A stretch of 23,344 nucleotides of DNA. It comes from a virus. The stretch is taken from IMG/VR virus record IMGVR_UViG_3300031167_000038, positions 1 through 23,344 of that record; one strand, given 5' to 3'. Shown here one piece after another: positions 1 through 23,344 of the stretch. The notes beneath the pieces are model-generated. The model saw nothing but the letters and a program-made list of their open reading frames with translations. It was not told the DNA's origin and did no database searches. Positions within the stretch are counted from its first letter, which is position 1; every line of letters begins with the position of its first letter. The position numbers were made by a program, and so were the translations under genes.

Positions 1-1
1 T

Positions 2-1228
2 ACAGGAGCCGCAGGCTCGAACGGAACAAACGGAACAGACGGAACAGACGGCAAATTTATATCAAGTGCCGCTGTAGCAGGTTCTACATTAACACTTACT
101 CATAGTGATTCAAGTACTACAGTAGTTAGTGGTAGTGTTACAGGTGCTACTGGAGCCGTTGGAAACGGAATTACAACTGTTGCTCTAAGTGGCGACAACT
201 TAGTATTAACTTACTCAAATGCTTCTGTACAAGATATGGGAAGTGTTAGAGGTGCTACTGGAGCCGCTGGAGCGGCAGGTGCCGCAGGTTCAGACGGAGC
301 CGCAGGCGCAGTAGACCAAACATTAAGTGCTTCAGGTAATGTTATTACTATTAGTGGTAACAACGACACAGTAGATTTAACTACTATGTTGGCACCATAT
401 ACAAAAACAGATACTGATGCACAGACATTATCATTAAGCGGAACAAACTTATCAATTACTGGTGGTAACACTATAGACGTAAGTAGCCTAGGCGGTAGTA
501 GTTATACTAACGCATCAGTTGATACGCACCTTAACCAAGCTGGACCAACAACTGGACATGTTCTTTCTTGGAATGGATCAGACTATGCCTGGGTAGCAAA
601 CAGTGGCGGTGGCAGTTATGGAGACTCCGATGTTGATTCTCACATACAAGGAACTGGTTCGCAGATCTCATACGCTTCAGGCGTAATTGGTTTAACCGAT
701 ACAGCCGTTACAGCAGGTATTTACGGAAGCTCAACAAACAGTCCACGTATTACAGTTGACCAACAAGGTAGAATAACAAGTGTAACTGAACAAGCAATCT
801 CCGGAGGCGGAGGCGGCAGTGGTACAAGTTACGAATACTTTAAAATATATTATACATCAGCAGGAGCCATTGATACAACTCAAGGCACTGGCGGTATTAG
901 TGATAAGAGTAGTAAGATGGGAACAGTTACAGTATCTAATGCGGCAAGTAATGCCTGTGAATTAACATTACATTTTAACAATAACTATAACAGACCTCCA
1001 TTAGGAATTACTGCTTATGGTTATTCCCAATCAACAAGTGAATATAACATAAAAAGCATGATACAAAACTTAGTTAACACCACATTAAAAATGGATGGCT
1101 CCGGCACTCCACATGGATCATTAGGATCAAACTTAATTACAATGAGTTTGACACGTTCTGAAACAGGCTCGAGCAGTGGCTTTGGACAATCCAGTCATGC
1201 TTGGATTTACTTTACGATGGGAAGTTAA
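2..1228 (+). CDS. Collagen-like virion structural / tail-fibre protein, 3' part
   Basis: The reading frame is open from base 2, so the 5' end lies outside the window; the visible part is 408 codons ending in TAA. Two Gly-X-X collagen-like stretches are seen, one at the very start (G-[ST]-[ND] triplets) and one at about 238-315 (GATGAAGAAGAAG-type triplets). They are separated and followed by Ser/Thr/Asn-rich beta-type sequence. A module at 703-807 (AG-x-YGS-...-P-x-ITVD-x-QGRITS) recurs in the fibre gene at 3397. Gly-X-X repeats and such modules are common in phage fibres and form trimers. The next gene starts one base after the stop, so the two are co-transcribed. A fibre or fibre-associated virion role is inferred from composition and neighbours; which fibre it is cannot be said. 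Confidence 0.75.
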   Translation, partial: TGAAGSNGTNGTDGTDGKFISSAAVAGSTLTLTHSDSSTTVVSGSVTGATGAVGNGITTVALSGDNLVLTYSNASVQDMGSVRGATGAAGAAGAAGSDGAAGAVDQTLSASGNVITISGNNDTVDLTTMLAPYTKTDTDAQTLSLSGTNLSITGGNTIDVSSLGGSSYTNASVDTHLNQAGPTTGHVLSWNGSDYAWVANSGGGSYGDSDVDSHIQGTGSQISYASGVIGLTDTAVTAGIYGSSTNSPRITVDQQGRITSVTEQAISGGGGGSGTSYEYFKIYYTSAGAIDTTQGTGGISDKSSKMGTVTVSNAASNACELTLHFNNNYNRPPLGITAYGYSQSTSEYNIKSMIQNLVNTTLKMDGSGTPHGSLGSNLITMSLTRSETGSSSGFGQSSHAWIYFTMGS

Positions 1229-1229
1229 G

Positions 1230-3257
1230 ATGGCAGACGTAATTAACAAAAATTCAACTTCAACACTAGATATATACAAACCAGCAAAAGTACTACAACT
1301 AAGTGTTACTAGTGCAACTGGTGAAAAGTATTGGCCCCATGATGATGGCGCAGGCGATCCGTGGTGGAGTTCAAGTGCAAGTCCTAAGTTTTATCAATAT
1401 GTATTGGTAATGACTGTTACAGAATATGCACATGGTTCACATAAGACTAGAGCACACAAAAAATATAATGGACTTGACGTAGCAGTTGGCGATTGGATTG
1501 CTGGCTCACAAGACGGCAAGTGTATGCAGATTATCAGTGTAAGTGCCAAGACAGCAACTACCGTTACTTGCATTGTAGAAGATGTATTGAGATACAATAC
1601 ATTTAGAAGTTCGGCTGGTAGTCCGATTTTTTCCGTACCAGGTACAGCATTACTATTTACGCTTAATGAAAACGGTAAGCCTATTATTGACCCGTTGCCT
1701 GCCAGTGTTGTTAGTACAGACTTTTATCCAAACGTAACTAGTAGGTTTGAATACTTTAATCCTGCTGAAAACTTTAGATTGGAAAAGACTGCTCATGGGT
1801 TCTCTAGAGGCGATGTAATTGTTGTCACTGAAGCTGGAGCCTATGCTAAGGCAAATGCGGTTACTATGTCAAGAACGATTGGTGTAGTCAGTGTTGTTGG
1901 ACCTGGCCCGAATCAATTTGCAGTAATGCCACAAAATAGAATTATAGATTTCAATCCTGCATTGCCAGGAACAGTTGGTAACTACATATATGCAGACACC
2001 GACGGAGACTTAACTACAACCGATACTGGTAAAGTTATATTCTTAAAACTTAAAAACTCTGTTGCATCAACAGTTACTAGCACAAATGCATCACCCACTG
2101 CTACAGTAGGAGATAAAATTGAGATCAACGGAGCCAACGTAACCTTTACTGGTACAACAGTTGCATCTGTTGTATCTAACATCAACGCAACGGCTAACAC
2201 TTATGTAATAGCTAGTACCCAGGCAGAGCCTACAACAGTAACTAGTGATACTAGTACATATAATTACGGATTACTAGGTGGATACATTCCTTTTGCAGGT
2301 ACAATTAGCACAGGAAGTGGCGACCAAACTATAACTCAAAGCACAGCAGTACATGGTGCTGGAGTATACGGAGCCGGTATTGCAAGTGCTACTGATATTA
2401 AAAACACAATTTCCGCATTAGGCATTGCAAACTTATCTGTTACAGTATTAGGTACTGGACAATTAAAATTAAGCGAAGCCAATGGTAATGCTGTTACTAT
2501 TACTAACACCACTGCAGATGCTAATGGAAATCCATTTGCTGGAGCAAGTAGTGTTACTGGTTTGCCGTTAACTACTAGTGCTACAACAGGAAGTTTTATG
2601 CTCTTATCTAGAGCAGACGGTGGACCAATTGATATAGAAAATACTGTGGGAACTCCTGCAGAAGACTTAGCCATTTATAGTACACACAATGGACAATATC
2701 CATTAGGACTATACATTGAGCATGGTGTTAGAAGTGGTGGTATTACTATCGTTGCTAACGTGGCGGCTCGTAACTCATTAACACCACAAGGTGGCGACAT
2801 GGCTTATGTTACTGATGCTGGTGATGGCGAATGGGGTCTGTTTATATATGATGGCAGTGCATGGACAGAAGTTGGTAACCAGGATAGTGCGGCAACTGAT
2901 GCCCAAACTATTAGTTTCAACTATACTGCACCTGGCGGAGGCTTTGGCGGAGTTGAAACTGTAAACTTAGCAAACATATCTCCTGGTGCTAGAATTGTAG
3001 ATGTTAGTGTTGAAGTTAATACTGCATTAAGTAATTATACTGGCGCTACTGAACCTACAGTTGATGTTGGCACAGCAAGTGACTTAGATCAGTTTATGAC
3101 TGGTGATGAGAGTGACTTATCATTAGCTGGTACATATACTGCTAATCCAAACTATTTATACCCTTCAACACAGACAGTTGACCTTAGTCTTAAGGCTAGA
3201 ATATCCCATAGAACAAGTACTGCAGGCGACTTTGTAGTAACTGTAACTTACGTCTAA
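1230..3257 (+). CDS. Virion structural protein, probable tail/baseplate fibre subunit
   Basis: 675 residues starting at the ATG one base after the previous stop (MADVINKN). A longer in-frame start at 1176 would run 18 codons into the upstream gene and is less likely. There is no strong Shine-Dalgarno, so translational coupling is likely. The N-terminal half is mixed alpha/beta sequence. The middle holds modules of the type GDKIxINGxxVTFTGTT...INA, seen in phage and surface adhesins. Near the C-terminus is a segment like GDMAYVTDAGDGEWGLFIYD, of a kind known in virion proteins of T4-like marine phages, followed by a Gly/Thr-rich beta-sandwich-like end (...TVTYV). No catalytic motif is seen. 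The structural role is well supported by context; the exact position in the virion is not. Confidence 0.72.
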   Translation: MADVINKNSTSTLDIYKPAKVLQLSVTSATGEKYWPHDDGAGDPWWSSSASPKFYQYVLVMTVTEYAHGSHKTRAHKKYNGLDVAVGDWIAGSQDGKCMQIISVSAKTATTVTCIVEDVLRYNTFRSSAGSPIFSVPGTALLFTLNENGKPIIDPLPASVVSTDFYPNVTSRFEYFNPAENFRLEKTAHGFSRGDVIVVTEAGAYAKANAVTMSRTIGVVSVVGPGPNQFAVMPQNRIIDFNPALPGTVGNYIYADTDGDLTTTDTGKVIFLKLKNSVASTVTSTNASPTATVGDKIEINGANVTFTGTTVASVVSNINATANTYVIASTQAEPTTVTSDTSTYNYGLLGGYIPFAGTISTGSGDQTITQSTAVHGAGVYGAGIASATDIKNTISALGIANLSVTVLGTGQLKLSEANGNAVTITNTTADANGNPFAGASSVTGLPLTTSATTGSFMLLSRADGGPIDIENTVGTPAEDLAIYSTHNGQYPLGLYIEHGVRSGGITIVANVAARNSLTPQGGDMAYVTDAGDGEWGLFIYDGSAWTEVGNQDSAATDAQTISFNYTAPGGGFGGVETVNLANISPGARIVDVSVEVNTALSNYTGATEPTVDVGTASDLDQFMTGDESDLSLAGTYTANPNYLYPSTQTVDLSLKARISHRTSTAGDFVVTVTYV

Positions 3258-3294
3258 TAATCCTTCCAGTAACTCACTAAAAACTTATTTGAAC

Positions 3295-3302
3295 GATAAA
3301 TA
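3295..3302 (+). promoter_or_regulatory. T4-type late promoter (GATAAATA)
   Basis: GATAAATA lies in the 139-base gap ahead of the large fibre gene and differs by one base from the T4 late consensus TATAAATA. There is no recognisable -35 box, as expected for gp55/gp33-type late transcription. The predicted start is a few bases downstream, placing the hairpin at 3314-3336 at the very 5' end of the mRNA. The same GATAAATA occurs before the fibre gene at 16635 and, on the other strand, before the gene at 20038. Confidence 0.6.
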
Positions 3303-3313
3303 CAACTAGTATT

Positions 3314-3336
3314 GTAATCAGAACTATTATGATTAC
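3314..3336 (+). other. 5'UTR hairpin ahead of fibre gene
   Basis: GTAATCA (3314-3320) and TGATTAC (3330-3336) form a perfect 7-bp stem with a 9-base loop, 11 bases after the late promoter and about 60 bases before the fibre start. It lacks a following U-run, so it is not a terminator. A 5'-terminal stem could protect the mRNA or tune expression; that role is inferred. Confidence 0.45.
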
Positions 3337-3396
3337 GGTGCGATCTATAGATAAAAAATGATTTATTAAACAAGTCATCCTTAAGGAGTAACACAA

Positions 3397-6300
3397 ATGG
3401 CGAACATTAAAAACTTTGGTATCAAAGGTGTAGCCGCAGATATTCAATTTGGTAAGGGCGGAGGGTTCATGGTATATGACAAATCCAATAACAAATTCCA
3501 AGTTAAAGATTCTGGTAGTAGTTTAGAAGATATTGAATTTGCAACCGTACTGGCGGGTACGTGGGCAGGAACGGCAATATCAGTTGCTAAAGGCGGAACA
3601 GGATTAACAACTGTTGCAACTGGCAAAATTCTTTACACTACAGGCACCGACACATTTGGTCAAACAGATATATCAGCAACAGGTATTTCACTATTAGGTA
3701 GTGCAGATGCGGCGGCTGGTAGAACAGCATTGGGATTAGGCAACGTAGCAACCCAGGCAAACACAGCAGTAGACATCGACGGTGGTGCTATTGACGGAAC
3801 AGTAATCGGCGCAAACGCGGCGGCGGCAGGTAGTTTCAGTACTATCAATGCATCAGGAAATATTACTGGCGCATTAGTTGGCAACGCATCAACAGCCACA
3901 ACATTAGCAACAGCAAGAACAATTGGTGGAGTATCATTTAATGGTTCTGCGGCAATCAACTTGCCAGGCGTTAACGCAGTTGGTTCTCAGAATACAACAG
4001 GATCAGCGGCATCGTTAACAACTGGAAGAACAGTATCCGCAACTGGCGATATTGCATGGACATCAGCGGCGTTTGATGGTACTGGTGCAGTAACAGGCGC
4101 GGCAACTTTAGCAACAGTTAACAGTGACGTAGGAACAGCAGGTAGTACTACTTCTATTCCAGTTATCACAGTTAATGCTAAGGGATTAGTAACAGCAGTA
4201 TCAACGGCTTCAATCGCAACATCATTTAATATTGCGGCTGACACTGGAACTGCTAACGCATTAGACGGTGGAGAAACACTTTCTATATTAGGTACAACAA
4301 ACGAAATCGACACAATAGTTACAGCAAATCAAATCCAAGTTGGATTGGTTGCTAACCCAACTATTGGCGGTAACTTAACTGTTTCTGGAAACTTAACTGT
4401 TTCTGGTACTAGAACAGACGTTAACGTAACAAACATGGCTGTAGAAGATTCACTAGTTGCTTATGCTACTGGTAACTCTTCAGACGCAGTTGATATTGGT
4501 TTCTTTGGTAAGTTCAACGACGGATCAAATGATTTAGCAACTGGTTTATTCAGAGATGCGAACGATGGTAAATACCACTTGTTCACTAGCTCACAGGAAA
4601 CTATCTCAGGTAACGTAGTAGACAAAGCGGCAACAGGTTATGCTGTAGCTTCTTTGAAAGCAAATACAGAAGGAACACATACTGGTGCAGTAATTGGTAA
4701 CGTAACTGGTGATACATCAGGAAGTGCTGGAACTGTAACAAGTATTGCAAGTCACGTAATTGATTCAGATTCTATGGCAGGTGCTTCGGCAACTAACGTA
4801 GCTTCAGCAGAATCAACTAAAGCATACGTCGACGCTACAGTAGGTGCTATTAGTACAGTACTAAGTGTTGGCGCAGACAGTGGTTCAGATGACGGAGTTA
4901 CAGTTGGAACAGACACATTAAACTTTAATGGTACAGCAAATGAAATTGAAACAACAGTTAGCGACAACGCTATTACTGTTGGATTAGTTAACTCACCAAC
5001 AGTAAGTGGTACAATGACAGCGGCAACATTCGCTGGTAACTTAACTGGTGACGTAACTGGTACAGCTTCATTGGCAACATTAGCCGCTGATGCAACAACA
5101 TTAGCAACCGCAAGAGCAATAGGTGGAGTATCGTTTGACGGTTCTGCAGATATTAACTTGCCAGGTGTTAATGCCGCAGGTAACCAAGCAACAAGTGGTC
5201 AAGCAGGAACAGTAGCAACTATTGCCGCTTTCGTACTTGACGAAGATAACTTTGCAACGAACAGTGCAACTTTAGTACCTTCACAACAATCTGTTAAAGC
5301 ATATACTGATGCGGCTATAGCCACAGCAGTTTCGGCTTCAGACTTAGACTTCACAGCAGACAGCGGTGGTGCTTTAAGTATAGACTTAGATAGTGAAACA
5401 TTAACTATTGCAGGTGGTACAGGTCTTTCAACTGCTGGTGCTGGTAACGGCGTAACAGTTAGTTTAGACGCTACGGCAGTAACCGCAGGATCATATGGTA
5501 GTACAACTGCTATTCCTGTTATTACAGTAGATGCACAAGGTAGATTGACATCGGCTTCAACAGCCGCTATTAGTACTGCTTGGACACTTACAGGTGATAC
5601 TGGAACTCAAACTGTTAACGGTGGAGACACAGTTGACATAGCAGGTGGAACTAATATTACTACAGTAGCTAGTGCAACTGACACATTGACAGTTAATCTA
5701 GATTCTAACGTAACTGGTTTAACATCTTTGGGTGCAACAACAGTAACAGGTACAACAGTAACAGATGGCACGTTTAGTGTTAATAGTGGTGCTATAACAG
5801 GCGCAACTAGTATTGGTGCAGTTGACTTAGTATTATCCGGTAACTTAACTGTTAACGGTACTACAACAAGTGTTTCATCAACTAACACTACAATCTCAGA
5901 TACATTGATTGAATTACAATCAGGACTAGCTGGCGGAAACAGTAGTGATATTGGTATTGTACTAGAACGTGGTAGTACTGGTGATAACGGCTTTATGGGT
6001 TGGGACGAGAGCGAAGACAAATTTGCTTTTGCAACAACTACAGCAACAGGTACAGCCACTGGCGACTTAACACTTGCAGATGCAGGTATTAAAGTTAGTG
6101 ACGTATTAGCTTCTGGAACTGTTACATTCGCAAGTTTAAGCGATGGAGCAATTACAATAGCATCCTTCCAAACTACACTTACAGATAGTGACACTATTGT
6201 TCCTACCTCAGGTGCTGTTAAGGATTATGTTGATTCACAAGTAGCCGCAGTAGATGATACTGTCTTAAGAGCTTCCTTTACAGCTAACTCTTCAGCAAGT

Positions 6301-6615: not shown

Positions 6616-6637
6616 GAAGTAGATAGAGAAACAAATT

Positions 6638-6665
6638 AAAAGCACACTTAGGTGTGCTTTTTTTT
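6638..6665 (+). terminator. Rho-independent terminator of the structural-gene block
   Basis: AAAAGCACAC (6638-6647) pairs with GTGTGCTTTT (6652-6661) around a TTAG loop, giving a perfect 10-bp stem with eight consecutive T at 6658-6665. It lies 23 bases after the fibre stop and just before the next promoter, so it separates late structural from early transcription. Confidence 0.93.
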
Positions 6666-6674
6666 GGATAAAAC

Positions 6675-6703
6675 TTGACATCAAGCAGAAATAGTCGTAT
6701 ACT
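6675..6703 (+). promoter_or_regulatory. Early sigma-70 promoter, TTGACA-N17-TATACT
   Basis: TTGACA at 6675-6680 and TATACT at 6698-6703 are separated by 17 bases, essentially ideal for host sigma-70. The predicted start site (about 6709-6711) falls on the ATG of the next gene at 6710, implying a leaderless transcript. Confidence 0.85.
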
Positions 6704-6709
6704 ATACGC

Positions 6710-7012
6710 ATGACTAAAGACAAAGACGGCGACGGTAACGAGCCAATAGACAACGTAGTAAAGTTTCCTTCAAAACCAAAGAAGGCGGACAACGACACTC
6801 ATTACGAAATTACTATTGAGAGTTTTAGCCCTGAAGAGTTACACACCAGAATGTCAGATATCGACGATTCATACGAAGCATGTTTTCACTATGCGAAAGC
6901 AATTGAATACACCATGCATAATTTCACCACAGACCTAGACCTAAACCAGCTTCAGGCCCTAGAAATCAAGTTAAAAGAGATATTTTTGGAGTTTGCTCCA
7001 GAAAAAGGTTGA
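6710..7012 (+). CDS. Small acidic early protein of unknown function (100 aa)
   Basis: 100 residues, rich in Asp/Glu/Lys. The N-terminal DNVVKFPSKPKK segment resembles disordered leaders of many small phage proteins. From about residue 34 a folded part follows (HYEITIESFSPEELHTRM...), with predicted helices to the end. ATG 6710 is the only plausible start: the next in-frame Met is residue 48 and would discard well-formed coding sequence. There is no Shine-Dalgarno, and the start coincides with the predicted transcription start. The stop codon overlaps the -35 box of the next promoter (7009-7014). I do not recognise the family; the run DKDGDGN looks like half of an EF-hand loop but lacks its later ligands. 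Confidence 0.75.
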   Translation: MTKDKDGDGNEPIDNVVKFPSKPKKADNDTHYEITIESFSPEELHTRMSDIDDSYEACFHYAKAIEYTMHNFTTDLDLNQLQALEIKLKEIFLEFAPEKG

Positions 7013-7037: not shown

Positions 7038-7084
7038 ATATGCATAGGTTGAGAAAACAAACATACATTTCGTAGGAGTAATAT

Positions 7085-8179
7085 ATGGAAACATTAACAG
7101 TAAGACCCAGTCAGACAAAGAACATTGTAAACAGAGCCTTTTTGGCGAAGAGACCAATATTCATGTGGGGTGCACCAGGAATTGGTAAATCTGAACTAAT
7201 AGAGGGTATTGTAAAGGACATGCCCGGTAACAATTTAATGATTGATATGCGTCTAGCATTAATGGAGCCAACTGACCTTAGAGGTTATCCGTTCCGTAAT
7301 GCAGAAACAAATCAAATGGAGTGGGCGCCACCGGCAGACCTTCCTAGCATGGAGCAGTCAGAACTGTACGACACGATTGTATTGTTCTTAGATGAGTTGA
7401 ACTCAGCTCCTCCAAGTGTACAAGCGGCGGCATACCAGTTAGTCCTTAATGGTCGAATTGGTCAGTACGTTATGCCAAGCAATGTAAGAATTGTAGCGGC
7501 TGGTAACAGAGAGACTGATAGAGGTGTTACTTATAGAATGCCTAGTCCGTTAGCAAACAGATTCCGTCATATTAACATGGACATTAACTTCGAAGATTGG
7601 AGTGTTTGGGCTGTTAATAATAAGATACACCAAGATGTTGTTGGGTACTTAACATACAGTAAAGCAGATTTATTTGACTTTGATCCTAAGACATCAAGTC
7701 AGTCATTTGCTACACCACGTAGTTGGTCTTTCGTAAGCGAAATACTAGAAACTGAAGGGTTTGAGTTCGCTCCTGACTTTGAGCAGAAGGCAGAAATTGC
7801 TGGAGCAGTTGGAGAAGGCATGGCTATTAAGTTTTGTGAACATAGAAAGGTTGCTTCAAAGCTACCTAACCCAGAAGATGTATTAACTGGTAAAGTTAAG
7901 ACCCTTAAGGTAAAAGAGAAGTCAGCTCAGTACTCATTCGCAATTGGATTATGCTACGAACTAGCCGCTCTTAATAAAGCGGACGACGAAGCGGCATTTG
8001 ACAAAGGTGTTGATTACTTCTTTGACTTTATAATGGAGAACTTTGAACCTGAGTTGGTTATCTTTAGTGCTAAGAGTGTTCTTAGTGACCACGACATAGA
8101 TATTAAGCCTAGAAAACTCCAAGGCAAGAAGGAGTTTAAGGAACGGTACTGGAAGTACTTGTTCCCCGCTACGGTATAG
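7085..8179 (+). CDS. MoxR-family AAA+ ATPase
   Basis: 364 residues with a clear Shine-Dalgarno (GTAGGAG) six bases before ATG. It is an AAA+ ATPase of the MoxR/AAA_5 type. Walker A is GAPGIGKS at residues 29-36, Walker B is LFLDELN with D103/E104, sensor 1 is GN (140-141) in VAAGNRETDRG, and arginine-finger candidates are R159 and R161 in PLANRFRHI. Residues 1-28 have no extra domain; the C-terminal ~180 residues include the lid region and an acidic helical part. MoxR ATPases usually work with a von Willebrand A protein as a chaperone-like pair that remodels or inserts cofactors into partner proteins. The next gene encodes such a partner. Target unknown. A separate promoter and terminator let each gene be set independently. 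Confidence 0.9.
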   Translation: METLTVRPSQTKNIVNRAFLAKRPIFMWGAPGIGKSELIEGIVKDMPGNNLMIDMRLALMEPTDLRGYPFRNAETNQMEWAPPADLPSMEQSELYDTIVLFLDELNSAPPSVQAAAYQLVLNGRIGQYVMPSNVRIVAAGNRETDRGVTYRMPSPLANRFRHINMDINFEDWSVWAVNNKIHQDVVGYLTYSKADLFDFDPKTSSQSFATPRSWSFVSEILETEGFEFAPDFEQKAEIAGAVGEGMAIKFCEHRKVASKLPNPEDVLTGKVKTLKVKEKSAQYSFAIGLCYELAALNKADDEAAFDKGVDYFFDFIMENFEPELVIFSAKSVLSDHDIDIKPRKLQGKKEFKERYWKYLFPATV

Positions 8180-8190
8180 GACAAAAAAAA

Positions 8191-8370: not shown

Positions 8371-9708
8371 ATGTCATTTAAAACAGATACATTAGCAGTG
8401 AAAGGACCAAAGATAACAGGAACACCAAGCGATACAGCTCACAAGGCTATTGCTACTATTCCTGAATCCAAGCTCACAGATAAAGAAGTTGAAGATAGAC
8501 TTATATCAACTCGTATTAACATGTTACTACAATGTCCGTTCTACGGAAACTTAGCATGTCGTTTAGAATTTAAAGACGCTAGTGAATGGTGTCCAACTGC
8601 CGCAACAGACGGCAAGTACTTCTACTACAATAAAGATTTTATATCAGCACTAACTATTCCAAACTTAGTTTTCCTTTGGGGACACGAAGTAGAGCATTGT
8701 GTTTACGATCACTTTGGTAGACGAGGTGACCGTAATCCAATGCTTTGGAACATTGCTAATGACTATGTAGTAAACATGGATTTAGTAGAAGGTAACATTG
8801 GTGAGAGAATTACACTAGTTGAGATACTGTTTGATTACAAGTATCGTAACTGGATGAGTGAAGAAGTATATGCTGACTTGTTCAAGCAAATGGAAGAAGA
8901 CGGCAAAGATTTTGAAGATGGAACTACACTTGATGTTCACTTAGATATGGAAGATGGTGAAGACGAAGGTAGTGGTCCAGGTATGGAAGGTAACGTTAAT
9001 GACGGAACCAAAGGTCCAGTAAGATATACAGAAGACGAAAAACGTAGTATTAAAGAAGCATTTAAGAATGCTACGGTACAGGCGGCACGTTCGGCTGGCG
9101 CTGGTAACTTACCTAGTGGCATTAAACGTCTTGTAGATGATCTAATTAATCCACAACTTAGTTGGAAAGAGTTACTACCACAGCAAATCCAAAGTGTAAT
9201 GAGAAGTGACTATAGTTACAATCAGTGTTCACGTAAAGGAATGGACAGTGGCATTTGGTTGCCAGGCATGGACAGAGAAGAGACTATAGATATCGCAGTT
9301 GGTATTGACACATCAGGATCAATGAGCGATGAGATGCTTAGAGATATCCTTAGCGAAACAAAAGGTGTTATGGATCAATACAGCGACTTCCGTATACACT
9401 TGTTCTGCTTTGATACTGAAGTACATAATCCACAAGTGTTCACTGAGCATAACATGGAAGAGTTTATGGAGTACGAGCCAGGCGGCGGTGGCGGTACTGA
9501 CTTTGATTGTTGTTTCGATTGGTTCAAAGAAGAAGGCATAGTGCCTAAGAAGTTCGTAATGTTTACAGATGGTTACCCTTGGAACAGTTGGGGCGATGAG
9601 AACTACTGTGATACATTGTTTATTGTGCATGGCGGAGGCTATGGCGGGCAGACACCTGTTGCACCTTTCGGCATAACTGTACCTTACAATAGAGATGAAG
9701 TAGCATGA
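8371..9708 (+). CDS. Metallopeptidase-like / VWA-domain protein (DUF2201 type), MoxR partner
   Basis: 445 residues with a strong Shine-Dalgarno AGGAGG five bases before ATG. The N-terminal half has the zinc-peptidase-like motif HEVEH (H105, E106, H109), followed by NIANDYVVN, as in the putative metallopeptidase domain of the DUF2201 family. An acidic linker lies at about 170-215. The C-terminal third is a von Willebrand A-like domain with a complete MIDAS: DTSGS (D313, S315, S317), a Thr after a Gly run (T376) and TDG (D400). Such proteins are paired with MoxR ATPases; the ATPase is the preceding gene. It overlaps the next gene by four bases (ATGA). Whether the HExxH site is catalytic, and what the pair acts on in infection, cannot be told from sequence. 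Confidence 0.88.
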   Translation: MSFKTDTLAVKGPKITGTPSDTAHKAIATIPESKLTDKEVEDRLISTRINMLLQCPFYGNLACRLEFKDASEWCPTAATDGKYFYYNKDFISALTIPNLVFLWGHEVEHCVYDHFGRRGDRNPMLWNIANDYVVNMDLVEGNIGERITLVEILFDYKYRNWMSEEVYADLFKQMEEDGKDFEDGTTLDVHLDMEDGEDEGSGPGMEGNVNDGTKGPVRYTEDEKRSIKEAFKNATVQAARSAGAGNLPSGIKRLVDDLINPQLSWKELLPQQIQSVMRSDYSYNQCSRKGMDSGIWLPGMDREETIDIAVGIDTSGSMSDEMLRDILSETKGVMDQYSDFRIHLFCFDTEVHNPQVFTEHNMEEFMEYEPGGGGGTDFDCCFDWFKEEGIVPKKFVMFTDGYPWNSWGDENYCDTLFIVHGGGYGGQTPVAPFGITVPYNRDEVA

Positions 9709-15846: not shown

Positions 15847-15856
15847 GGAAACTACT

Positions 15857-16564
15857 ATGCGATTATACACAGGAAAAGAAGTTATTGCTCATGCCGTTGC
15901 TGTTGACAGATACCAAGGGTATAAGTACATCAAATCGCATGAAGCAACAGGCTCTATAAAACCCAACTTCAGCCTATTAATCCATTCGTTAAAGGACCCT
16001 AAGACTTCAGTAGTTGGTTCCGTTACGGACCAGGACTATGTTACAGCAGACTTAATCGTTGAATACTTCGAAGGATTAGTGTTTAAGGCTATGCAACGTG
16101 AACTGAGTGAGTATGAGAAGAAGATTACTGATCTTATTAAAGCAGTTGACATCAATCTACGAGGTAGAGATGATAGGCTTCCTATTGTTGGATCGTTACC
16201 TAACGTGTATAGAAACAATACCAAGCATGATGTTTGGGCAGAGGAAGAACAAAGTTTGCGTAAGACATCTGAATATGAAGGTGAGATAAAGACCAGGTCA
16301 GAGTTCAGTGGTGTTGTTAAAATGTCACGTTTTATGAATCGAACTAATAGTTTATTGGTTGCAGTACTCACAGACAAAGGTAACATAGTTAAGTTCTTTT
16401 ATGACTTATACAGACGTTCACCTGAATTTGAGCCAAGGACTGCACTAGCAGAAGGCAACACTATAAACTTCGTAGGACATGTTAAAGGACATGACGTGTC
16501 TAAGTACTCTAAATGCAAAGAGACATTTATTAATAGAGTTAATGTTCATACAGATGATAAATAG
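15857..16564 (+). CDS. Protein of unknown function, possible OB-fold C-terminal domain (235 aa)
   Basis: The start ATG has AAGGAA about six bases upstream. Residues 1-100 are mixed helix/strand (YFEGLVFKAMQRELSEYEKK). Residues about 150-235 have a strand pattern suggestive of an OB-fold: SEFSGVVKMSRF, SLLVAVLTDKGNIVKFFYDL, EGNTINFVGHVKGHD, and a final TFINRVNV. OB-folds of this kind bind single-stranded nucleic acid, so a DNA-metabolism role is possible; this is inference from pattern only. Its last codons contain the late promoter at 16556. Confidence 0.75.
   Translation: MRLYTGKEVIAHAVAVDRYQGYKYIKSHEATGSIKPNFSLLIHSLKDPKTSVVGSVTDQDYVTADLIVEYFEGLVFKAMQRELSEYEKKITDLIKAVDINLRGRDDRLPIVGSLPNVYRNNTKHDVWAEEEQSLRKTSEYEGEIKTRSEFSGVVKMSRFMNRTNSLLVAVLTDKGNIVKFFYDLYRRSPEFEPRTALAEGNTINFVGHVKGHDVSKYSKCKETFINRVNVHTDDK
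16556..16563 (+). promoter_or_regulatory. T4-type late promoter (GATAAATA)
   Basis: GATAAATA overlaps the stop codon of the previous gene and lies 72 bases before the fibre-like gene, followed by two hairpins. It is the same octamer as at 3295 (before the other fibre) and 20096-20089 (- strand). Confidence 0.6.
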
Positions 16565-16579
16565 TATTATAACTTAGAA

Positions 16580-16618
16580 CTAGAAACTTTAGGGTTTCTA
16601 GACTGTTAACAATAACAG
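16580..16618 (+). other. Two tandem 5'UTR hairpins ahead of fibre-like gene
   Basis: CTAGAAAC (16580-16587) and GTTTCTAG (16594-16601) form a perfect 8-bp stem with a 6-base loop. One base later CTGTTA (16603-16608) and TAACAG (16613-16618) form a perfect 6-bp stem with an ACAA loop. There is no U-run, and GGAG at 16622-16625 follows directly, so a role in mRNA stability or translation is more likely than termination. Confidence 0.6.
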
Positions 16619-16634
16619 ATCGGAGTATAATATA

Positions 16635-17810: not shown

Positions 17811-17838
17811 TACTCGTATTAACGGTAGTTAATACTCG
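17804..17838. repeat. Direct and inverted repeats at a convergent gene junction
   Basis: TAGTTAATACTCG occurs at 17804-17816 and again at 17826-17838. Between them GTATTAA (17816-17822) can pair with TTAATAC at 17807-17813 or at 17829-17835, giving two mutually exclusive hairpins. The first copy contains the stop of the + strand fibre gene and the second contains the stop of the - strand oxygenase gene. The stems lack G+C and there are no U-runs, so termination would be weak; it may be a bidirectional terminator or a rearrangement scar. Confidence 0.6.
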
Positions 17839-18524
17839 CACTTCCAACGAATCATAACACTTTCCCTTACATCACCTGGAGCGATATTAGTCGGAGCCTG
17901 ATGCCATGAGCCTTGTGCGTTGGTTGTTATAAACATTGTGTTAGGCATGAAAGGTACAGTAACTTCGTGTTTCCAATTATGTTCTTTGTCTTTATGTGCC
18001 ATGTGGGGCTGAGTCATGCCTTCATCTTGCATAGCATCTGTATGAATATCATCGCCTATGTAAGTAAACAGTTTAGTACCATAACGTCTTTGACTGTCAT
18101 CTTTAGGCAGGTAGATCATAGCACTGATAGTATAGTATGTAGGATCGAAGAACTGATCTGTATGTATATCGTTTATTAATAACTTGTCTGTGTCTTTCCA
18201 AAACGTGACACAAGGCACTGGAGCTTCTGATACTTCGTCGCCAAACTTCTTAGCAATAGCAAAAAATAGTTTTTCCATTAACTTGTTGAATTGTCTTACG
18301 TCTGATGTAGAAATATCTAATGCAGTTAATACATATTCATCTCTGCAACCGTAAACATCATGTTCATGCACTATATTAACAGAATCTGCATACTCTAGAA
18401 ACGTGCGATAGTTTTGGTTGATAGGTTCGGCAACAAACATATGGGGCCAGGGTGCTGTAAGTAGTTCGGACTGTTCTACTTTATATATTGTATTATTTAG
18501 ATTCTGAATAAAATCCGTATACAT
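17829..18524 (-). CDS. 2OG-Fe(II) oxygenase-like protein A (231 aa)
   Basis: The ATG has a perfect AGGAGG five bases upstream, inside the end of the preceding gene (32-base overlap). The double-stranded beta-helix iron site is visible: H121 and D123 in NDIHTD, distal H208 in GSWHQAP, and R220 in VRESVMIRW as 2-oxoglutarate ligand. A YGTKLF strand follows YLPKD. These enzymes use O2 and 2-oxoglutarate to hydroxylate proteins, nucleic acids or small molecules. The sequence around the iron site (W-x-DT-x5-ND-[IV]-H-x-D) matches the neighbouring gene, so the two are paralogues. Substrate unknown. It is the last gene of the - strand block. Confidence 0.85.
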   Translation of the reverse strand: MYTDFIQNLNNTIYKVEQSELLTAPWPHMFVAEPINQNYRTFLEYADSVNIVHEHDVYGCRDEYVLTALDISTSDVRQFNKLMEKLFFAIAKKFGDEVSEAPVPCVTFWKDTDKLLINDIHTDQFFDPTYYTISAMIYLPKDDSQRRYGTKLFTYIGDDIHTDAMQDEGMTQPHMAHKDKEHNWKHEVTVPFMPNTMFITTNAQGSWHQAPTNIAPGDVRESVMIRWKCEY

Positions 18525-19287
18525 GCTTCCTCCTGATGTCTTTATTAATTATAGGACTGCTATGCCATGCTTTTGCAGATCTAGGTATAAAGTATGCTGT
18601 ACCATTAGTGAATGGTAGTTGGTCTATGAGTGTGCAGTTCTCTCTTATTAAACTTGTAGTTAAGTCAGTTTCAAATACGTTTGGTTGCCAAAACTGTGTA
18701 CCAAACTCTGTTACTCGATCCTCTCCTGGCAAGTACATGCCAAATGTAATACCAAACTCATCGCTATCAACATGTACATCATTAACTGTGAATTGATTAG
18801 TATCTTGCCACAGCCAAACATTGCAATCATGCTCTTGATGTATTGCAAACTTATCTGCTATAGCCATTCTAATGTACTCATGATTGAATACTAAGTCATG
18901 TAGCTCCTGGAATGCAGGATTGCAGTCTATGTTTGCTTGTAGTCTTCCCTTAACTTCTGGCGGTAAAAACTCTGTGGGCCAGTTAGCATTAAGACTTTCT
19001 AATAGTGCTGGAGCAATAAAGTTTTCTATAACTATCTTGCTTTGAGATATTTTAGATTTAGCTATTGCATTTAGCGAATGTATTGTGTAAGGATGAAATT
19101 GTATCTCTCCTATGCTTTGAACACTACCACCTTCAAGTAAGATAGGTAGCCTAGGGTACCAAGGTTCAGCATCCATAGGTAAATGTGTGCAACTATTCAT
19201 TAGTCCACATTCTATACATTTTATTCTGGGATAGTCTGGATCGTACTCCGCAGGGTGAAACGGAATTCCGTGCTTGTCTTTAGCCAA
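18493..19287 (-). CDS. 2OG-Fe(II) oxygenase-like protein B with N-terminal Cys cluster (264 aa)
   Basis: Starts at TTG two bases after the previous stop; the first ATG would be codon 30, inside a Cys cluster, so TTG is preferred but not certain. Residues 20-36 carry C24-x2-C27-x5-C33-x-H35, a possible small zinc knuckle. The oxygenase domain follows: H172 and D174 in NDVHVD, FGTQFW after MYLPGED, distal H242 in AWHSSP, and R252/R253 as the 2-oxoglutarate Arg. All iron ligands are present. It is paralogous to protein A, which has no Cys cluster, so the cluster may serve target binding. Function in infection unknown. Confidence 0.82.
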   Translation of the reverse strand: MAKDKHGIPFHPAEYDPDYPRIKCIECGLMNSCTHLPMDAEPWYPRLPILLEGGSVQSIGEIQFHPYTIHSLNAIAKSKISQSKIVIENFIAPALLESLNANWPTEFLPPEVKGRLQANIDCNPAFQELHDLVFNHEYIRMAIADKFAIHQEHDCNVWLWQDTNQFTVNDVHVDSDEFGITFGMYLPGEDRVTEFGTQFWQPNVFETDLTTSLIRENCTLIDQLPFTNGTAYFIPRSAKAWHSSPIINKDIRRKHVYGFYSESK

Positions 19288-19289
19288 TG

Positions 19290-19601
19290 TTAAATCTCTA
19301 TGCTGGCTTCGAAGCTAAAGGTGATGTCTTCAAACTCTTCAAATAAGATAGTACTAATCTCATCACCTTCTGTAGGGAGGATCATTTCATCTAATACTAT
19401 TTCGTATATGAATAACTCTCCTTCCTTGTCTTCGTCTGTGTATGATATAACTTCAATGCCTACTTGTTCTTTCTCTTGGTCATACGCAGTTAATAATTTA
19501 GTGGCAACAACACTCTGCACGATATCAAAGTATTCGATAACGTCTTCGTCGGATAACTCTTCTCGAGTAATCATTCTTGTAAAGTGTTTTATAAATGCCA
19601 T
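19290..19601 (-). CDS. Small acidic protein of unknown function (103 aa)
   Basis: Very acidic (many Glu/Asp), mixed alpha/beta, with a basic N-terminus MAFIKHFTRMITREELSDED and a beta-rich second half (GIEVISYTDEDKEGELFIYEIVL, then ITFSFEASIEI). There is no membrane segment or motif I recognise. It lies between the EF-hand/TM gene (five bases apart) and the oxygenase genes on the - strand and shares their transcription. The ribosome site is weak (AGG 13 bases upstream), so coupling to the preceding gene is likely. Confidence 0.72.
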   Translation of the reverse strand: MAFIKHFTRMITREELSDEDVIEYFDIVQSVVATKLLTAYDQEKEQVGIEVISYTDEDKEGELFIYEIVLDEMILPTEGDEISTILFEEFEDITFSFEASIEI

Positions 19602-19606
19602 TATGA

Positions 19607-20038
19607 TTATTTACCTTTGCTAAACGCCTGAGCACCAAAGAATGCGGCAACAATACCGGCAACTGCAACAAAGTATGTTGGTGCCATTGATCCTAGTGTT
19701 GACTGTGCTTCACTTAGTCCTGCCAAGCTGGCAAAAACTACTGCGAATGGGTATAGTAACATGCCAAATAATGAGAACCAAGCCATCTTACGTTGAGCAT
19801 CTCTCATTGCATCTGCATCTTCTAATTCTTTTCTCTTGAATTCTAAGTGCATATCCATTTCACCTTTAGAGATATGTCCATCTCCGTTAGTGTCTATATC
19901 TTCCATTCCTTCGACTGTTTTAAATCCACGATTATCAACTGTCGGACCATCACCAGCTGGAGCATCACCTGCCGCTTTTGCCTTCAATGCATCATACTCT
20001 TTACGGGTCATGCTTACTTCTGCTTTATCTTCTGCCAT
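19607..20038 (-). CDS. EF-hand protein with two C-terminal membrane helices, possible holin
   Basis: 143 residues with GTAGGAG about eight bases before ATG. Residues 49-60 (DTNGDGHISKGE) are a canonical 12-residue calcium-binding EF-hand loop, with D1, N3, D5, G6, I8 and E12 in place. An amphipathic charged helix (61-84) leads to two hydrophobic segments, about 86-108 and 118-139, joined by a short polar turn, ending SKGK. There is no signal peptide. A helical hairpin with a charged tail and late expression fits a class II holin or other late inner-membrane protein. The EF-hand would be unusual in a holin. A membrane structural or superinfection protein is the alternative. Confidence 0.8.
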   Translation of the reverse strand: MAEDKAEVSMTRKEYDALKAKAAGDAPAGDGPTVDNRGFKTVEGMEDIDTNGDGHISKGEMDMHLEFKRKELEDADAMRDAQRKMAWFSLFGMLLYPFAVVFASLAGLSEAQSTLGSMAPTYFVAVAGIVAAFFGAQAFSKGK

Positions 20039-20088
20039 TTTCGTTTCTCCTACAAAACTTCTGTTTACTGTATGTATTCTACTATTAG

Positions 20089-20096
20089 TATTTATC
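20089..20096 (-). promoter_or_regulatory. T4-type late promoter on the - strand (GATAAATA)
   Basis: Reading the - strand from 20096 to 20089 gives GATAAATA, about 50 bases before the EF-hand gene and followed by its Shine-Dalgarno. There is no sigma-70 -35 box. It is the only evident promoter for the four-gene inverted block. Confidence 0.65.
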
Positions 20097-20109
20097 TAAA
20101 AGATAGTTC

Positions 20110-20137
20110 TTGACATAACCAGCTTTTAGTGTATAAT
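20110..20137 (+). promoter_or_regulatory. Early sigma-70 promoter, TTGACA-N16-TATAAT
   Basis: TTGACA at 20110-20115, 16-base spacer, TATAAT at 20132-20137. It serves the dsbA-like gene and gene 43. A late-like AATAAATA lies just downstream (20150-20157), but its first base departs from the forms seen elsewhere. The promoter is back-to-back with the - strand late promoter 14 bases away. Confidence 0.88.
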
Positions 20138-20195
20138 AAGAGCATAAGTAATAAATATTACTACATTCAACACACACAGTAACAAAGAGGTAGAA

Positions 20196-20459
20196 ATGGC
20201 ATTTAACAAAACATTCAACGCAGAAGAACAAGCAAGACTAAAGAAACTTATCCAAGAGGGCGATCAAGTCCTATACGAAGTAGACGCACTGAGCGAAGGG
20301 TTACGAGAAACTGTAAAAGCAATTGCAGAAGAAATGGACCTTAAAGCTGGAGTACTTATGAAAGCAGTTAAAGTTGCTCATAAGGCTAAGTTTACAGATG
20401 AAAGAGATAAGTTCGATGAACTCGAAACAATCCTGGAAACTGTCGGCAAAACACTTTAA
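20196..20459 (+). CDS. dsbA: DsbA-like double-stranded DNA-binding late-transcription protein
   Basis: 87 residues, close to the ~89 of T4 DsbA. The pattern FNAEEQARLKKLIQEGDQVLYEVDALSEGLRETVKAIAEEMDLK, with GLR[ED]TVKA-[IV]-AEE followed by a helix KAGVLMKAVKVAHKAKF, is the feature I recognise as DsbA. In T4, DsbA binds DNA at late promoters and helps their activation; late-type promoters are present in this window, which fits. It lies just before gene 43 with a 19-base gap and is read from the early promoter at 20110. This call rests on remembered similarity and could be checked by HMM. Confidence 0.8.
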   Translation: MAFNKTFNAEEQARLKKLIQEGDQVLYEVDALSEGLRETVKAIAEEMDLKAGVLMKAVKVAHKAKFTDERDKFDELETILETVGKTL

Positions 20460-20478
20460 TTTCTAGGATAGAACAAAT

Positions 20479-23172
20479 ATGAGTTACGTCGATGCATTCC
20501 ACGACACAGCCAAAGATAAAATTTATGTAGCCGAACGAGTGAACGGCGAACGTAAGATTATCACACATCAGCCTGAGTACAACTTTTATTTTAGTGATCC
20601 TAAAGGCAAGAAGCGTAGTATTCATGATGAGCCAGTCACAGAGATTAGATGCAAAAGTCTCAAAGAGTTCAGGAAGAACATTGCTATTAATAGAGCAACT
20701 GGTAAGTTATATGAGACTGATGTTAAGCCTGTTAACAAAACACTAGAGAAGAACTATCTCAATATTGATCCACCTAAACTACATACATGTTTCTTTGACA
20801 TCGAGGTAGACTTTGATCCTGTTAACGGATTTAGTACGCCTGAAGATGCCCTCATGCCTATCACAGCAATTGGCTTTTATATGGACTGGATGGATACTAT
20901 GGTATGTCTTGCAGTTCCACCGAAGACATTGACATGGGAACAGGCAGAGAACATTGCTAGTGCATACAAAGAAGTAATACTATTTAAAGACGAAGCAGAG
21001 ATGCTTAGAACATTCCTACATTTGATTGATGATGCAGACATATTGTCCGGTTGGAACAGCGAGGGTTATGATATCCCTTACACTATTAATAGGATCGTTA
21101 AGATACTAGGACGTAGTGCTACTAGGCAGATGTGTTTGTTTAATCAGTTACCCAAGGAGAGAATGTATGAGAACTTTGGTACAGAGAGACAGAGCTATGA
21201 CCTAATTGGTCGTGTACACTTGGACTACTTACAACTATATCGTAAGTACAACTATGAGGAACGACACAGTTATAGGCTAGATGCTATCGGAGAGATTGAA
21301 CTAGGTGAGAAGAAAGTTGTCTATGATGGATCGCTTGACAGACTATACAATCATGACTTTGGTAGATTCTTAGAGTATAACATACAAGACGTTATGCTTA
21401 TTGCTCGTATGGATAAGAAACTACAGTTCATTGACTTAGCTAATACTATTGCACATGACAACACCGTGCTACTGTATACTACAATGGGTGCTGTGGCAAC
21501 TACTGAACAAGCAATTATTAATGAAGCACACAGACGTGACATGGTAGTGCCAGATAGAAAGCGAGGTGGTAGTAAGAAAGGATCAGCGGCGGCTGGTGCC
21601 TTTGTGGCAACACCTAAGAAAGGCTTTCACGAATGGATTGGCAGTATGGATATTAACAGTCTGTACCCAAGTGTATTCCGTGCATTGAATATGGCTAACG
21701 AAACTATCGTTGGACAGTTGCGTCCTGACTTTACTGATGAAGAAGTTGAAGCAAAGATTAGATTAGAGAAGAGTTCATTTGCAGATGCTTGGCTAGGTAA
21801 GTTCGGATCAAACGAATACGAACTAGTTATGGAGCAAGACAATGCTCGTACAATGACATTGGATATGGAAGACGGCACAACTGCAGAAGTAACAGGCAGT
21901 GATGTGTACAACTTAATATTCAACAGTGGTCAACCTTGGAGCATTAGTGCTAACGGAACTATATTTAAAACAGACGTACTAGGCATTGTACCAGGCTTAC
22001 TAGAGCGTTGGTATACTGAACGTCAAGTATTACAAGCAAAGAAGAAAGAAGCAACTACAGAGGCGGAGAAGGCATTCTATGACAAGCGACAGTTAGTTAA
22101 GAAGATTAACTTGAACAGTTTGTATGGTGCGATCCTAAACCCAGGCTGTAGATTCTTTGATAAACGTATTGGTCAGAGTACTACTTTGACCGGAAGGCGT
22201 ATCACACGCCACATGGGAGCAAAAGTGAATGAGTTGCTCACAGGAAGTTACGATCATACAGGCGACACAATCATTTATGGAGACACTGACTCAGTGTACT
22301 TCACGGCAACGCCTGCCTTACCTGATGATATGCATTTAGATATGGATAGTGCTGTCAGCTTGTATGATCGTATCAGTGACCAGGTTAGTGATACCTTCCC
22401 AGACTTTATGAAGCAAGACTTTAATAGTCCAACAGAGATGGGTAGCGTTATTAAAGCAGGTAGAGAGGTAGTTGGTAAGTCAGGTATCTTTATTACTAAG
22501 AAGCGGTATGCAATCAAGTGTTTAGATATTGAAGGGTGGCAACCAGAAGGTGGCTATCTTAAAATTATGGGTATGGACATTAAGCGTTCAGACACACCTG
22601 AGTTCATACAAGACTTCCTAGAAGAGATACTAGACGATACACTTGAAGGAAAGCAAGAGCCAGAAGTTATACAAATGATTAAAGACTTTAAAGAATCATT
22701 TGGTGAGTTAGATGCTTGGAGGAAAGGAATGCCTAAACGTGTTAACAACTTAACCAAGTACACTGACAAACTTCGTAAGCAACAAAACAGTATGCCAACT
22801 GGCAGTACTATGTTTGGTATGACTGGTGCCGCCGATGATGGCGAGAACAAGATGATACCTGGACATGTTAGAGCTAGTATTAATTACAATGCTATGCGAT
22901 TTGCTAACGGAGACAACTATAGTTTACAGATTATGGACGGTAGTAAAGTTGTAGTGTGCAGACTAAAGCCAAACCCAATGGGCTATACTAGTATGGCTTA
23001 TCCTACAGATGAAATGCAGATTCCACAATGGTTTAAAGATATGCCGTTCGACGAAGACGCAATGGAAGAAGCAGTATTGGATAAGAAGATACAAAACGTA
23101 CTAGGTGTAATGAATTGGGATCTTAAGAGTGCTAACGATAGTGCGGCATTCCAACAGTATTTTGAATTTTAA
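20479..23172 (+). CDS. 43: DNA polymerase, family B (T4 gp43 type)
   Basis: 897 residues, against 898 in T4 gp43. The 3'-5' exonuclease domain has Exo I FFDIEVD (D107, E109), Exo II GWNSEGYD (D198) and Exo III YNIQD (Y300, D304). The polymerase has motif A SMDINSLYPS (D391), motif B K542-x3-NSLYG and motif C IYGDTDS (D602, D604), plus the KKRY element. All catalytic residues are present. The last residues (AAFQQYFEF) form a short hydrophobic C-terminal tail like the sliding-clamp-binding peptide of gp43. Replicates the phage genome with proofreading. AGGA lies about 11 bases upstream of ATG. No intein or split is seen. Confidence 0.98.
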   Translation: MSYVDAFHDTAKDKIYVAERVNGERKIITHQPEYNFYFSDPKGKKRSIHDEPVTEIRCKSLKEFRKNIAINRATGKLYETDVKPVNKTLEKNYLNIDPPKLHTCFFDIEVDFDPVNGFSTPEDALMPITAIGFYMDWMDTMVCLAVPPKTLTWEQAENIASAYKEVILFKDEAEMLRTFLHLIDDADILSGWNSEGYDIPYTINRIVKILGRSATRQMCLFNQLPKERMYENFGTERQSYDLIGRVHLDYLQLYRKYNYEERHSYRLDAIGEIELGEKKVVYDGSLDRLYNHDFGRFLEYNIQDVMLIARMDKKLQFIDLANTIAHDNTVLLYTTMGAVATTEQAIINEAHRRDMVVPDRKRGGSKKGSAAAGAFVATPKKGFHEWIGSMDINSLYPSVFRALNMANETIVGQLRPDFTDEEVEAKIRLEKSSFADAWLGKFGSNEYELVMEQDNARTMTLDMEDGTTAEVTGSDVYNLIFNSGQPWSISANGTIFKTDVLGIVPGLLERWYTERQVLQAKKKEATTEAEKAFYDKRQLVKKINLNSLYGAILNPGCRFFDKRIGQSTTLTGRRITRHMGAKVNELLTGSYDHTGDTIIYGDTDSVYFTATPALPDDMHLDMDSAVSLYDRISDQVSDTFPDFMKQDFNSPTEMGSVIKAGREVVGKSGIFITKKRYAIKCLDIEGWQPEGGYLKIMGMDIKRSDTPEFIQDFLEEILDDTLEGKQEPEVIQMIKDFKESFGELDAWRKGMPKRVNNLTKYTDKLRKQQNSMPTGSTMFGMTGAADDGENKMIPGHVRASINYNAMRFANGDNYSLQIMDGSKVVVCRLKPNPMGYTSMAYPTDEMQIPQWFKDMPFDEDAMEEAVLDKKIQNVLGVMNWDLKSANDSAAFQQYFEF

Positions 23173-23182
23173 GGCGAGATAG

Positions 23183-23344
23183 ATGAACCAAAAATGGAAC
23201 ACACAACCACTAACATCAGGCAGTGTAGTTATTAACACAGGGCTCGGTGGACCAGTAACAGTTAGTCCTATGTCTAGTTGTACTCCCGCTCCTACGTTCA
23301 CTACATCAGGAACAGCAATAAATCAAGGCACCATTACAGTAAGT
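23183..23344 (+). CDS. Unknown protein, 5' part only
   Basis: An ATG with AAGG eight bases upstream opens a frame that runs off the window end (54 codons seen). It begins 10 bases after the gene 43 stop. The visible part is rich in Ser, Thr, Gly and Pro with alternating hydrophobics (GSVVINTGLGGPVTVSPM), as in beta-structured surface or virion proteins, but it is too short for any assignment. Confidence 0.65.
   Translation, partial: MNQKWNTQPLTSGSVVINTGLGGPVTVSPMSSCTPAPTFTTSGTAINQGTITVS

Follow-up and report, generated by a model that had tools for sequence, protein, structure and literature searches.

Why should a stretch of 23,344 bases of viral DNA contain not a single GCWGC, that is, neither GCAGC nor GCTGC? 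The stretch is the IMG/VR virus record IMGVR_UViG_3300031167_000038 at its full length (hereafter the window) and encodes a family B DNA polymerase. Its lack of GCWGC had been noticed in a sequence-only reading, which expected roughly 20 copies and proposed that a restriction target is avoided. The count is indeed 0 over all 23,344 bases, and the expectation had been set too low: 100 dinucleotide shuffles give a mean of 36.2 (standard deviation 5.5), a maximal-order Markov model gives 31.7, and shuffling of synonymous codons, the null for which the reading had called, gives 41.6 (minimum 33 over 30 shuffles) rather than a value near zero. The only 5-mers absent from the window are GCAGC/GCTGC and CGGCC/GGCCG. 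GCWGC is therefore far below both compositional and codon expectation, as in restriction-site avoidance.

By contrast, GCSGC is in excess (49 vs. 10.7 expected), and the Ala-Ala examples that the reading had cited for its abundance are present:

3709–3827, plus strand: examples of Ala-Ala runs that use GCGGC and so contribute to the excess of GCSGC.

In open reading frames (ORFs) called with a simple longest-ORF script, all 44 Ala-Ala pairs of the window have GCG (29) or GCC (15) as the first codon, and GCA and GCT together make up 480 of the 591 Ala codons. A bias against Ala-Ala codon pairs is ruled out, since GCWGC is missing outside the Ala-Ala phase as well: in the two phases that do not spell Ala-Ala, it occurs 0 times vs. 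about 84 expected, summed over the window and three large related contigs (G001, G004, and G005). Because sites in these phases are missing as well, the absence is a rule about DNA.

Relatives of the window were found, and trees built, with one gene as the marker:

20479–23172, plus strand: family B DNA polymerase.

The best annotated relatives of this polymerase belong to jumbo phages, namely Sinorhizobium phage Phosso (46%), Vibrio phage 2.275.O (45%), and Agrobacterium phage Atu_ph07 (43%). A megablast of the window against 50,697 phage records gave no match, and four polymerase scans of IMG/VR yielded relatives at 52% to 100% identity (the best 80 of 208 and the best 80 of 124 were retained). 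All contigs come from metagenomes, and for none is completeness established. Trees were made with FastTree and have low support at some nodes (<0.5 at several, including the placement of locus L169); loci with a polymerase fragment of less than 600 amino acids, and L162, a near-copy of L043, were left out of them. In the clade around the window polymerase, 88 of the 107 leaves, the window included, are without GCWGC (1,663 kb, 0 observed vs. about 1,665 expected), zero status being judged, for most leaves, from a locus no longer than 22.7 kb. Dereplication leaves 44 zero contigs of 1,207 kb in total, with GCWGC at 0/1,184 (here and below, paired figures are observed/expected). The absence extends over very large contigs: G001 (250,519 bp, 0/211), G004 (109,775 bp, 0/138), and G005 (97,319 bp, 0/125). 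A local or chance absence is thus ruled out, and the related phages that the reading had wished to see examined bear it out, contigs of 250 and 110 kb among them. Among the other 19 leaves, 8 have exactly one GCWGC, which amounts to six different sites; five of them have a GC that sits in GGC or GCC. GCSGC reaches 3.4–6.8 times expectation in seven large avoiders, indicating synonymous escape.

Outside this clade the pattern fades. The sister clade is mixed, with observed/expected ratios for GCWGC of 0.21 in G031, 0.31 in G034, 0.14 in G032, and 0.07 in G033, and with non-avoiders at 0.87 (G035) and 1.19–1.52 (G036, G037, G039, and G042). Outgroup stretches do not avoid the word (Phosso, 104/88; Vibrio 2.275.O, 93/58; Salicola SCTP-2, 25/18; Atu_ph07, 54/34), and in HTVC008M (65/34) and P-SSM2 (67/27), two unrelated marine phages, 50-kb stretches exceed expectation. 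General avoidance by such phages was rejected, as stretches of 35–50 kb of HTVC008M, P-SSM2, Atu_ph07, and DAC16 show none.

The reading had considered the depletion specific to the W-centered motif. It is not, since GCWGC is one of four missing words:

1–23344, no strand: absent words HGCGCD, GCWGC, HGCDHGCD, and HGCDN5HGCD, i.e., pairs of bare GC at spacings 2, 3, 4, and 9.

Here a "bare" GC is HGCD, a GC outside GGC and GCC, and the spacing d is counted from start to start. In the window, HGCGCD occurs 0 times vs. 22.5 expected, HGCDHGCD 0 vs. 20.9, and HGCDN5HGCD 0 vs. 21.5, whereas the control at spacing 6, HGCDNNHGCD, occurs 49 times vs. 21.8. Synonymous-codon shuffles bring back all four words, with 11 bare pairs expected at d2, 32 at d3, 10 at d4, and 37 at d9 (for d9, the lowest of 20 shuffles was 30). 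G001 has none at d2 (0/54), d3 (0/215), d4 (0/55), or d9 (0/215), and has bare pairs at d5 (37/54), d6 (334/215), d7 (72/55), and d8 (76/54), with d10–12 normal. The 88 zero leaves give 2/505 at d2, 7/546 at d4, and 139/1429 at d9; they were picked only for zero GCWGC, so that this entry is zero by construction. A set of 47 full-taboo leaves (1,331 kb) was picked for zero GCWGC and low d9, both entries then holding by construction; d2 and d4, as well as whole contigs such as G001, are free of that selection. When these 47 leaves are pooled, all other distances from 5 to 40 lie at ratios of 0.82–1.50. Bare pairs at d6, d7, and d12 are in excess in the same pool (1.36–1.50). When dinucleotide pairs separated by up to 14 bases were scanned without bias, only GC-GC and AGCT fell under the threshold.

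All four avoided words are classes identical to their own reverse complement, as are palindromic Type II-like targets. HhaI cuts GCGC and Cac8I cuts GCNNGC. TseI and ApeKI recognize GCWGC and Fsp4HI recognizes GCNGC (PMC4926085), the BbvI methyltransferase targets GCWGC (PMC4081073), and MwoI targets GCN7GC (PMC3874165). The four spacings match the restriction specificities GCGC, GCWGC/GCNGC, GCNNGC, and GCN7GC. The spacings can be lost one by one. Among leaves informative at all four, 17 of 34 ban all of them, and 47 of the 67 informative at d9 ban d9. G005 bans d2, d3, and d4 and not d9 (87/106), L140 bans d2 and d3 (d9, 29/27), G047 bans only d2 (0/35; d3, 29/57), and G031–G034 ban only d3. 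Because the spacings come and go separately among lineages, several enzymes with GC half-sites are favored over one, and the pattern suggests several such nucleases behind the spacing rule.

A second rule concerns flanking bases. The ban is relaxed, in part or in full, when either GC is preceded by G or followed by C, with ratios at d9 of 0.47–1.53 vs. 0.00–0.01 for bare pairs, and at d4 of 0.41–0.74 vs. 0.00–0.07. At d2, GGCGCA stands at 154/149 and AGCGCA at 1/290. At d3 in G031–G034, bare pairs are at 9/675, whereas pairs shielded on one outer side are at 94/184 and 121/183, so that the ban falls chiefly on bare pairs. In G001 at d9, counts rise from 0/215 for bare pairs to 116/142 with one shield and 179/65 with two or more. 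Relief that is partial with one shield and full with two would be compatible with a protective modification on the phage side at GGC/GCC. In the full-taboo leaves, GCCN5GGC and GGCN7GCC are enriched about four-fold at d9. Because every GCSGC contains GGC or GCC, the W-specificity of the GCWGC taboo may itself be this exemption, and the dismissal of a GCNGC target of the Fnu4HI type, which the reading had based on the many GCSGC sites, is unsafe, given that GGC/GCC exempts wholly or partly at spacings 2, 4, and 9.

The taboo is also tied to a phage methyltransferase. A search with PF01555 in 30 contigs gave weak matches in G002, G003, and G046 and a strong one in G040. When the protein of the former three was searched for in 53 contigs of the polymerase family, it was present in only those three, all of which contain GCWGC (G002, 423/524; G046, 110/181; L021, a stretch of G003, 14/31). 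The other words are tolerated as well, in G002 (d2, 166/262; d4, 193/250; d9, 505/471) and in G046 (d2, 69/81; d4, 66/82; d9, 82/86), so that all four words are found in two methyltransferase-bearing lineages within the clade, one of which is clearly nested. The G002 lineage is sister to 28 all-zero leaves and retains an excess of GCSGC (452/204), a possible trace of past avoidance. Because L169, the locus of G046, is poorly placed in the tree, regain in G046 is only one possibility. G040 has a different, strong N6/N4 methyltransferase (L216 1432–2283; PF01555, 110 bits), and GCWGC is reduced (4/20) at locus L211 of this contig.

The methyltransferase occurs in at least 191 IMG/VR stretches, and 78 of the 80 loci analyzed (the best 80 of 191) contain GCWGC. 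In a polymerase tree of a chosen subset of leaves, which links the methyltransferase to the GCWGC state, zero GCWGC was found in 0 of 20 positive leaves vs. 30 of 50 tested negative leaves; in two deep groups, one of them sister to the window's clade, every tested leaf is positive. The methyltransferase is thus present where targets remain and absent where they have been purged, with the exceptions of two loci (L366 and L381) and of 20 of the 50 negatives, which are not zero. The SPPY motif and a motif I-like block are invariant in the 16 of 16 sequences aligned, and the predicted structure (predicted template modeling score, pTM, 0.77) is that of a class I S-adenosylmethionine (SAM) methyltransferase and matches SAM methyltransferases, pointing to a DNA amino-methyltransferase. 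Profile matches are faint: PF01555 falls below the cut-off, the Type II methyltransferase models of PADLOC match weakly, and NCBIfam gave no match. Because one scan of bacterial genomes gave only 3 loci, all on contigs of metagenome-assembled genomes (MAGs), the protein looks like a phage family, and a bacterial origin was rejected on the same count. In 13 of the 80 loci (L313 and 12 others), the methyltransferase gene adjoins that of a protein resembling SAM synthetase.

Taken together, we hypothesize, and think it rather probable, that the clade has purged restriction targets from its DNA and that the phage methyltransferase is an alternative shield. In this model, the clade would survive Type II-like restriction by removal of the targets. 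These would consist of two GC half-sites (GCGC, GCWGC or perhaps GCNGC, GCNNGC, and GCN7GC) and be dangerous mainly when both GC are bare. Related lineages carrying the phage-type DNA amino-methyltransferase would instead methylate the targets and hence tolerate the words. A methyltransferase specific for the GC dinucleotide would cover all four words at once, which may be why they are tolerated together. We infer the nucleases as the cause, their ownership by hosts, and the protection of sites by the methyltransferase from these patterns. Avoidance of a restriction target, as the reading had proposed, is therefore the explanation that we retain, the link to the methyltransferase supporting it; its narrower form, a single site of the TseI/ApeKI/BbvI type, does not stand, as three more GC-pair spacings are avoided.

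Several observations weigh against this hypothesis. A turnover of host restriction-modification specificities would be expected, yet the avoidance of GCWGC is shared by phages whose polymerases are as little as 64% identical to that of the window. L366 (0/12) and L381 (0/16) carry the methyltransferase and are nevertheless zero, and some negatives are not zero, namely G047 (0.60), G016 (0.58), and G007 (1.42), which are fragments of 30–56 kb, and most contigs of the sister clade. The tree association has to be read with the provisos that 17 of the 20 positive leaves entered via the methyltransferase scan and that leaves are non-independent. Further, independent host enzymes would not be expected to share one GGC/GCC exemption unless it is a property of the phage, and the zero contigs searched yielded no methyltransferase that could account for it. 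The four families gave no match, whether PF00145 (26 contigs), PF02086 and PF02384 (15 contigs), or PF01555 (7 contigs), and neither did a motif scan of the ORFs of G001, G004, and G005, so that this candidate was rejected. A family-wide 7-deazaguanine at GGC may be the cause instead, which we regard as a lead only. FolE and a QueE-like family (PHROG 2076) occur in the zero contigs G001, G004, G005, G006, G008, and G011, but such genes are also found in G031–G036, G039, L138, and others, avoiders or not. With a family model that may overlook phage versions, a TGT-type (DpdA-like) gene was matched in 0 of 42 records; QueC and QueD were not clearly found, QueC giving weak, partial matches only in the zero contigs.

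The TGT family likewise gave no match in Vibrio 2.275.O, although queC and queD are annotated there and QueC matches strongly; the weak QueC match in G004 falls in a gene that Pfam calls an NAD synthase; the QueD query matched only its own phage; and tblastn with queC, queD, and QueF of Vibrio 2.275.O and queE of Phosso matched no relative. Phage CAjan reportedly carries 7-deazaguanine in its DNA at GA and GGC contexts. A GGC-specific shield of that kind would yield the exemption, and FolE/QueE-like genes are family-wide here; unlike in CAjan, there is no DpdA/TGT match and no clear QueC/QueD in the zero contigs, and the modification here is only putative.

Other explanations have to be weighed against purging in the face of host enzymes. 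A mutational or codon-pair effect without selection on DNA would gain from the fact that most expected GCWGC fall on Ala-Ala codon pairs, but all three codon phases are empty and synonymous-codon shuffles restore the four words, which already contradicts it and leaves it with a negligible probability; as for deamination, the C-to-T products GTAGC (0.77) and GCAAC (1.28) are not consistently raised relative to unavoiding contigs. It is also improbable, though less extremely so, that the phage DNA is modified and that enzymes of the BisI/GlaI type, which need several modified cytosines, select against dense GC pairs. BisI and GlaI do target modified GCNGC and GCGC, some BisI homologs were published as cutting GCWGC better than GCSGC, and homologs of a Phosso glycosyltransferase are present in many contigs; however, no methyltransferase of the searched families is present in the zero contigs searched, and the taboo is weaker, not stronger, where the methyltransferase is present. 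A Tet_JBP search gave no match, but its controls were silent too, so that it is uninformative on absence. Alternatively, one nuclease system might read pairs of bare GC, with dimer geometry setting spacings that shift by lineage and with recognition itself excluding GGC/GCC. The identical half-site, the nearly identical exemption at spacings 2, 4, and 9, and the pair scan, with only GC-GC and AGCT below the threshold, are what such a system would produce, but the spacings dissociate between lineages and we know of no enzyme family with such lineage-shifting spacings, and we consider it unlikely.

We judge it similarly unlikely that the phages themselves encode one or more GC-pair nucleases, for example against host or rival DNA, with their own DNA spared by methylation or by absence of the motif. 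The GCWGC taboo is near constant over deep divergence, the methyltransferase looks like a phage family (3 bacterial loci, all on MAG contigs), and the unrelated marine phages HTVC008M and P-SSM2 are above expectation for GCWGC, all of which would be consistent with a weapon of the phages. Against this, no nuclease was recognized with Pfam among 20 clade-restricted proteins of G001, G004, and G005 from families absent from no-pressure contigs (10 of them also compared with PHROGs), and none of the families within 6 kb of the methyltransferase in at least 12 of the 80 loci appeared restriction-like by eye. One clade-restricted protein of the window was modeled as a candidate for the nuclease causing the taboo:

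15857–16564, plus strand: clade-restricted protein whose model resembles OB folds.

It was rejected, as the model matches mostly OB folds (best E 2.4e-3) and no nuclease. Another candidate lies close upstream of the methyltransferase in G046:

L282 18882–19388: endonuclease gene, presumably of the HNH type judging from its motif.

This gene fails to track the taboo, being absent from the zero contig G001 and present in the zero contig G005 and in the unavoiding G036 and G007. A gene for a GCWGC nuclease was thus not found among the phage proteins checked, no zero genome being known to be complete. Somewhat less unlikely, yet still doubtful, is a broader account in which a GC-pair reader, phage- or host-borne, acting at d2, 3, 4, and 9 and ignoring GGC/GCC, has been met either by a GC amino-methyltransferase or by total erasure from genomes of at least 250 kb, with modification of a base at GGC as a further shield.

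A homolog of one window gene has the methyltransferase gene directly upstream of it in G046 and no more than about 4 kb away in G002; no methyltransferase gene stands beside the window copy:

7085–8179, plus strand: gene adjoining a VWA-type gene; its product is presumably a MoxR-like AAA ATPase.
8371–9708, plus strand: gene next to the MoxR gene, with a homolog near the methyltransferase in G046 and G002; its product is, we assume, of the VWA type.

In Phosso, the neighboring gene of the VWA kind matches Pfam DUF2201.

Other words are depleted in parts of the group. Losses confined to single lineages include GTATAC (0/52) and GTTAAC (0/46) in G001 (L082–L094), TTTAAA (0/44) in G005 (L118–L122), TACGTA (0/21) in G004 (L095–L100), and AGTACT (0/10) in G011 (L134–L136); several of these palindromes are sites of blunt cutters. 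Such losses are in keeping with the purging of restriction targets. AGCT is strongly depleted, being found 876 times vs. 6,583 expected in the 88 zero leaves; lineages range from having none to having about half of the expected number. The strong shortage of AAGCTT extends to relatives that do not avoid GCWGC (26 vs. 257), and each of the seven large avoiders (for example G001, 134/353), like the window (11/35), is short of CATCC/GGATG.

Purging of targets and self-methylation are usually treated apart, and here they look exchangeable within one phage group, which offers natural contrasts. The absolute purge over very large contigs, together with the spacing code, predicts the enzymes that shaped these phages, and it points to an uncharacterized phage methyltransferase family that may shield the whole range of GC-pair sites together.

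Restriction-site avoidance by phages is established, and about one viral genome in ten has lost such a target completely or nearly so (Rusinov et al., 2018; PMC6286503). As described there, short palindromic Type II targets are eliminated at the DNA level, as they are here; what differs from that description is the clade-wide extent, the four spacings of one half-site, the GGC/GCC exemption, and the lack of the taboo in lineages with the phage methyltransferase. Staphylococcus phage K, in which GATC has been eliminated from a 140-kb genome (PMC6532042), likewise has one restriction target purged from a large genome, but that case involves a single site and a known host enzyme, Sau3A, whereas ours involves many diverged phages and putative enzymes. 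The MwoI restriction-modification system, with its m4C methyltransferase M.MwoI, has a target, GCN7GC, equal to our word at spacing 9 (PMC3874165). MwoI is not known to spare GGC/GCC flanks and has no known tie to these phages. GC-specific viral methyltransferases exist as well, namely M.CviPI and M.Vme43I (PMC11347163). With such an enzyme, all four words would be protected, and the methyltransferase described here may act in this way, although the putative GC methyltransferase, unlike those two, has amino-methyltransferase motifs (SPPY). Among the matches listed in open-licence PubMed Central literature, at the level of titles and beginnings of abstracts, we found no account of this pattern. 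Avoidance of targets is known; what is new is a GC-pair spacing code that extends over a whole clade, carries an exemption, and is exchanged for a phage methyltransferase in some lineages.

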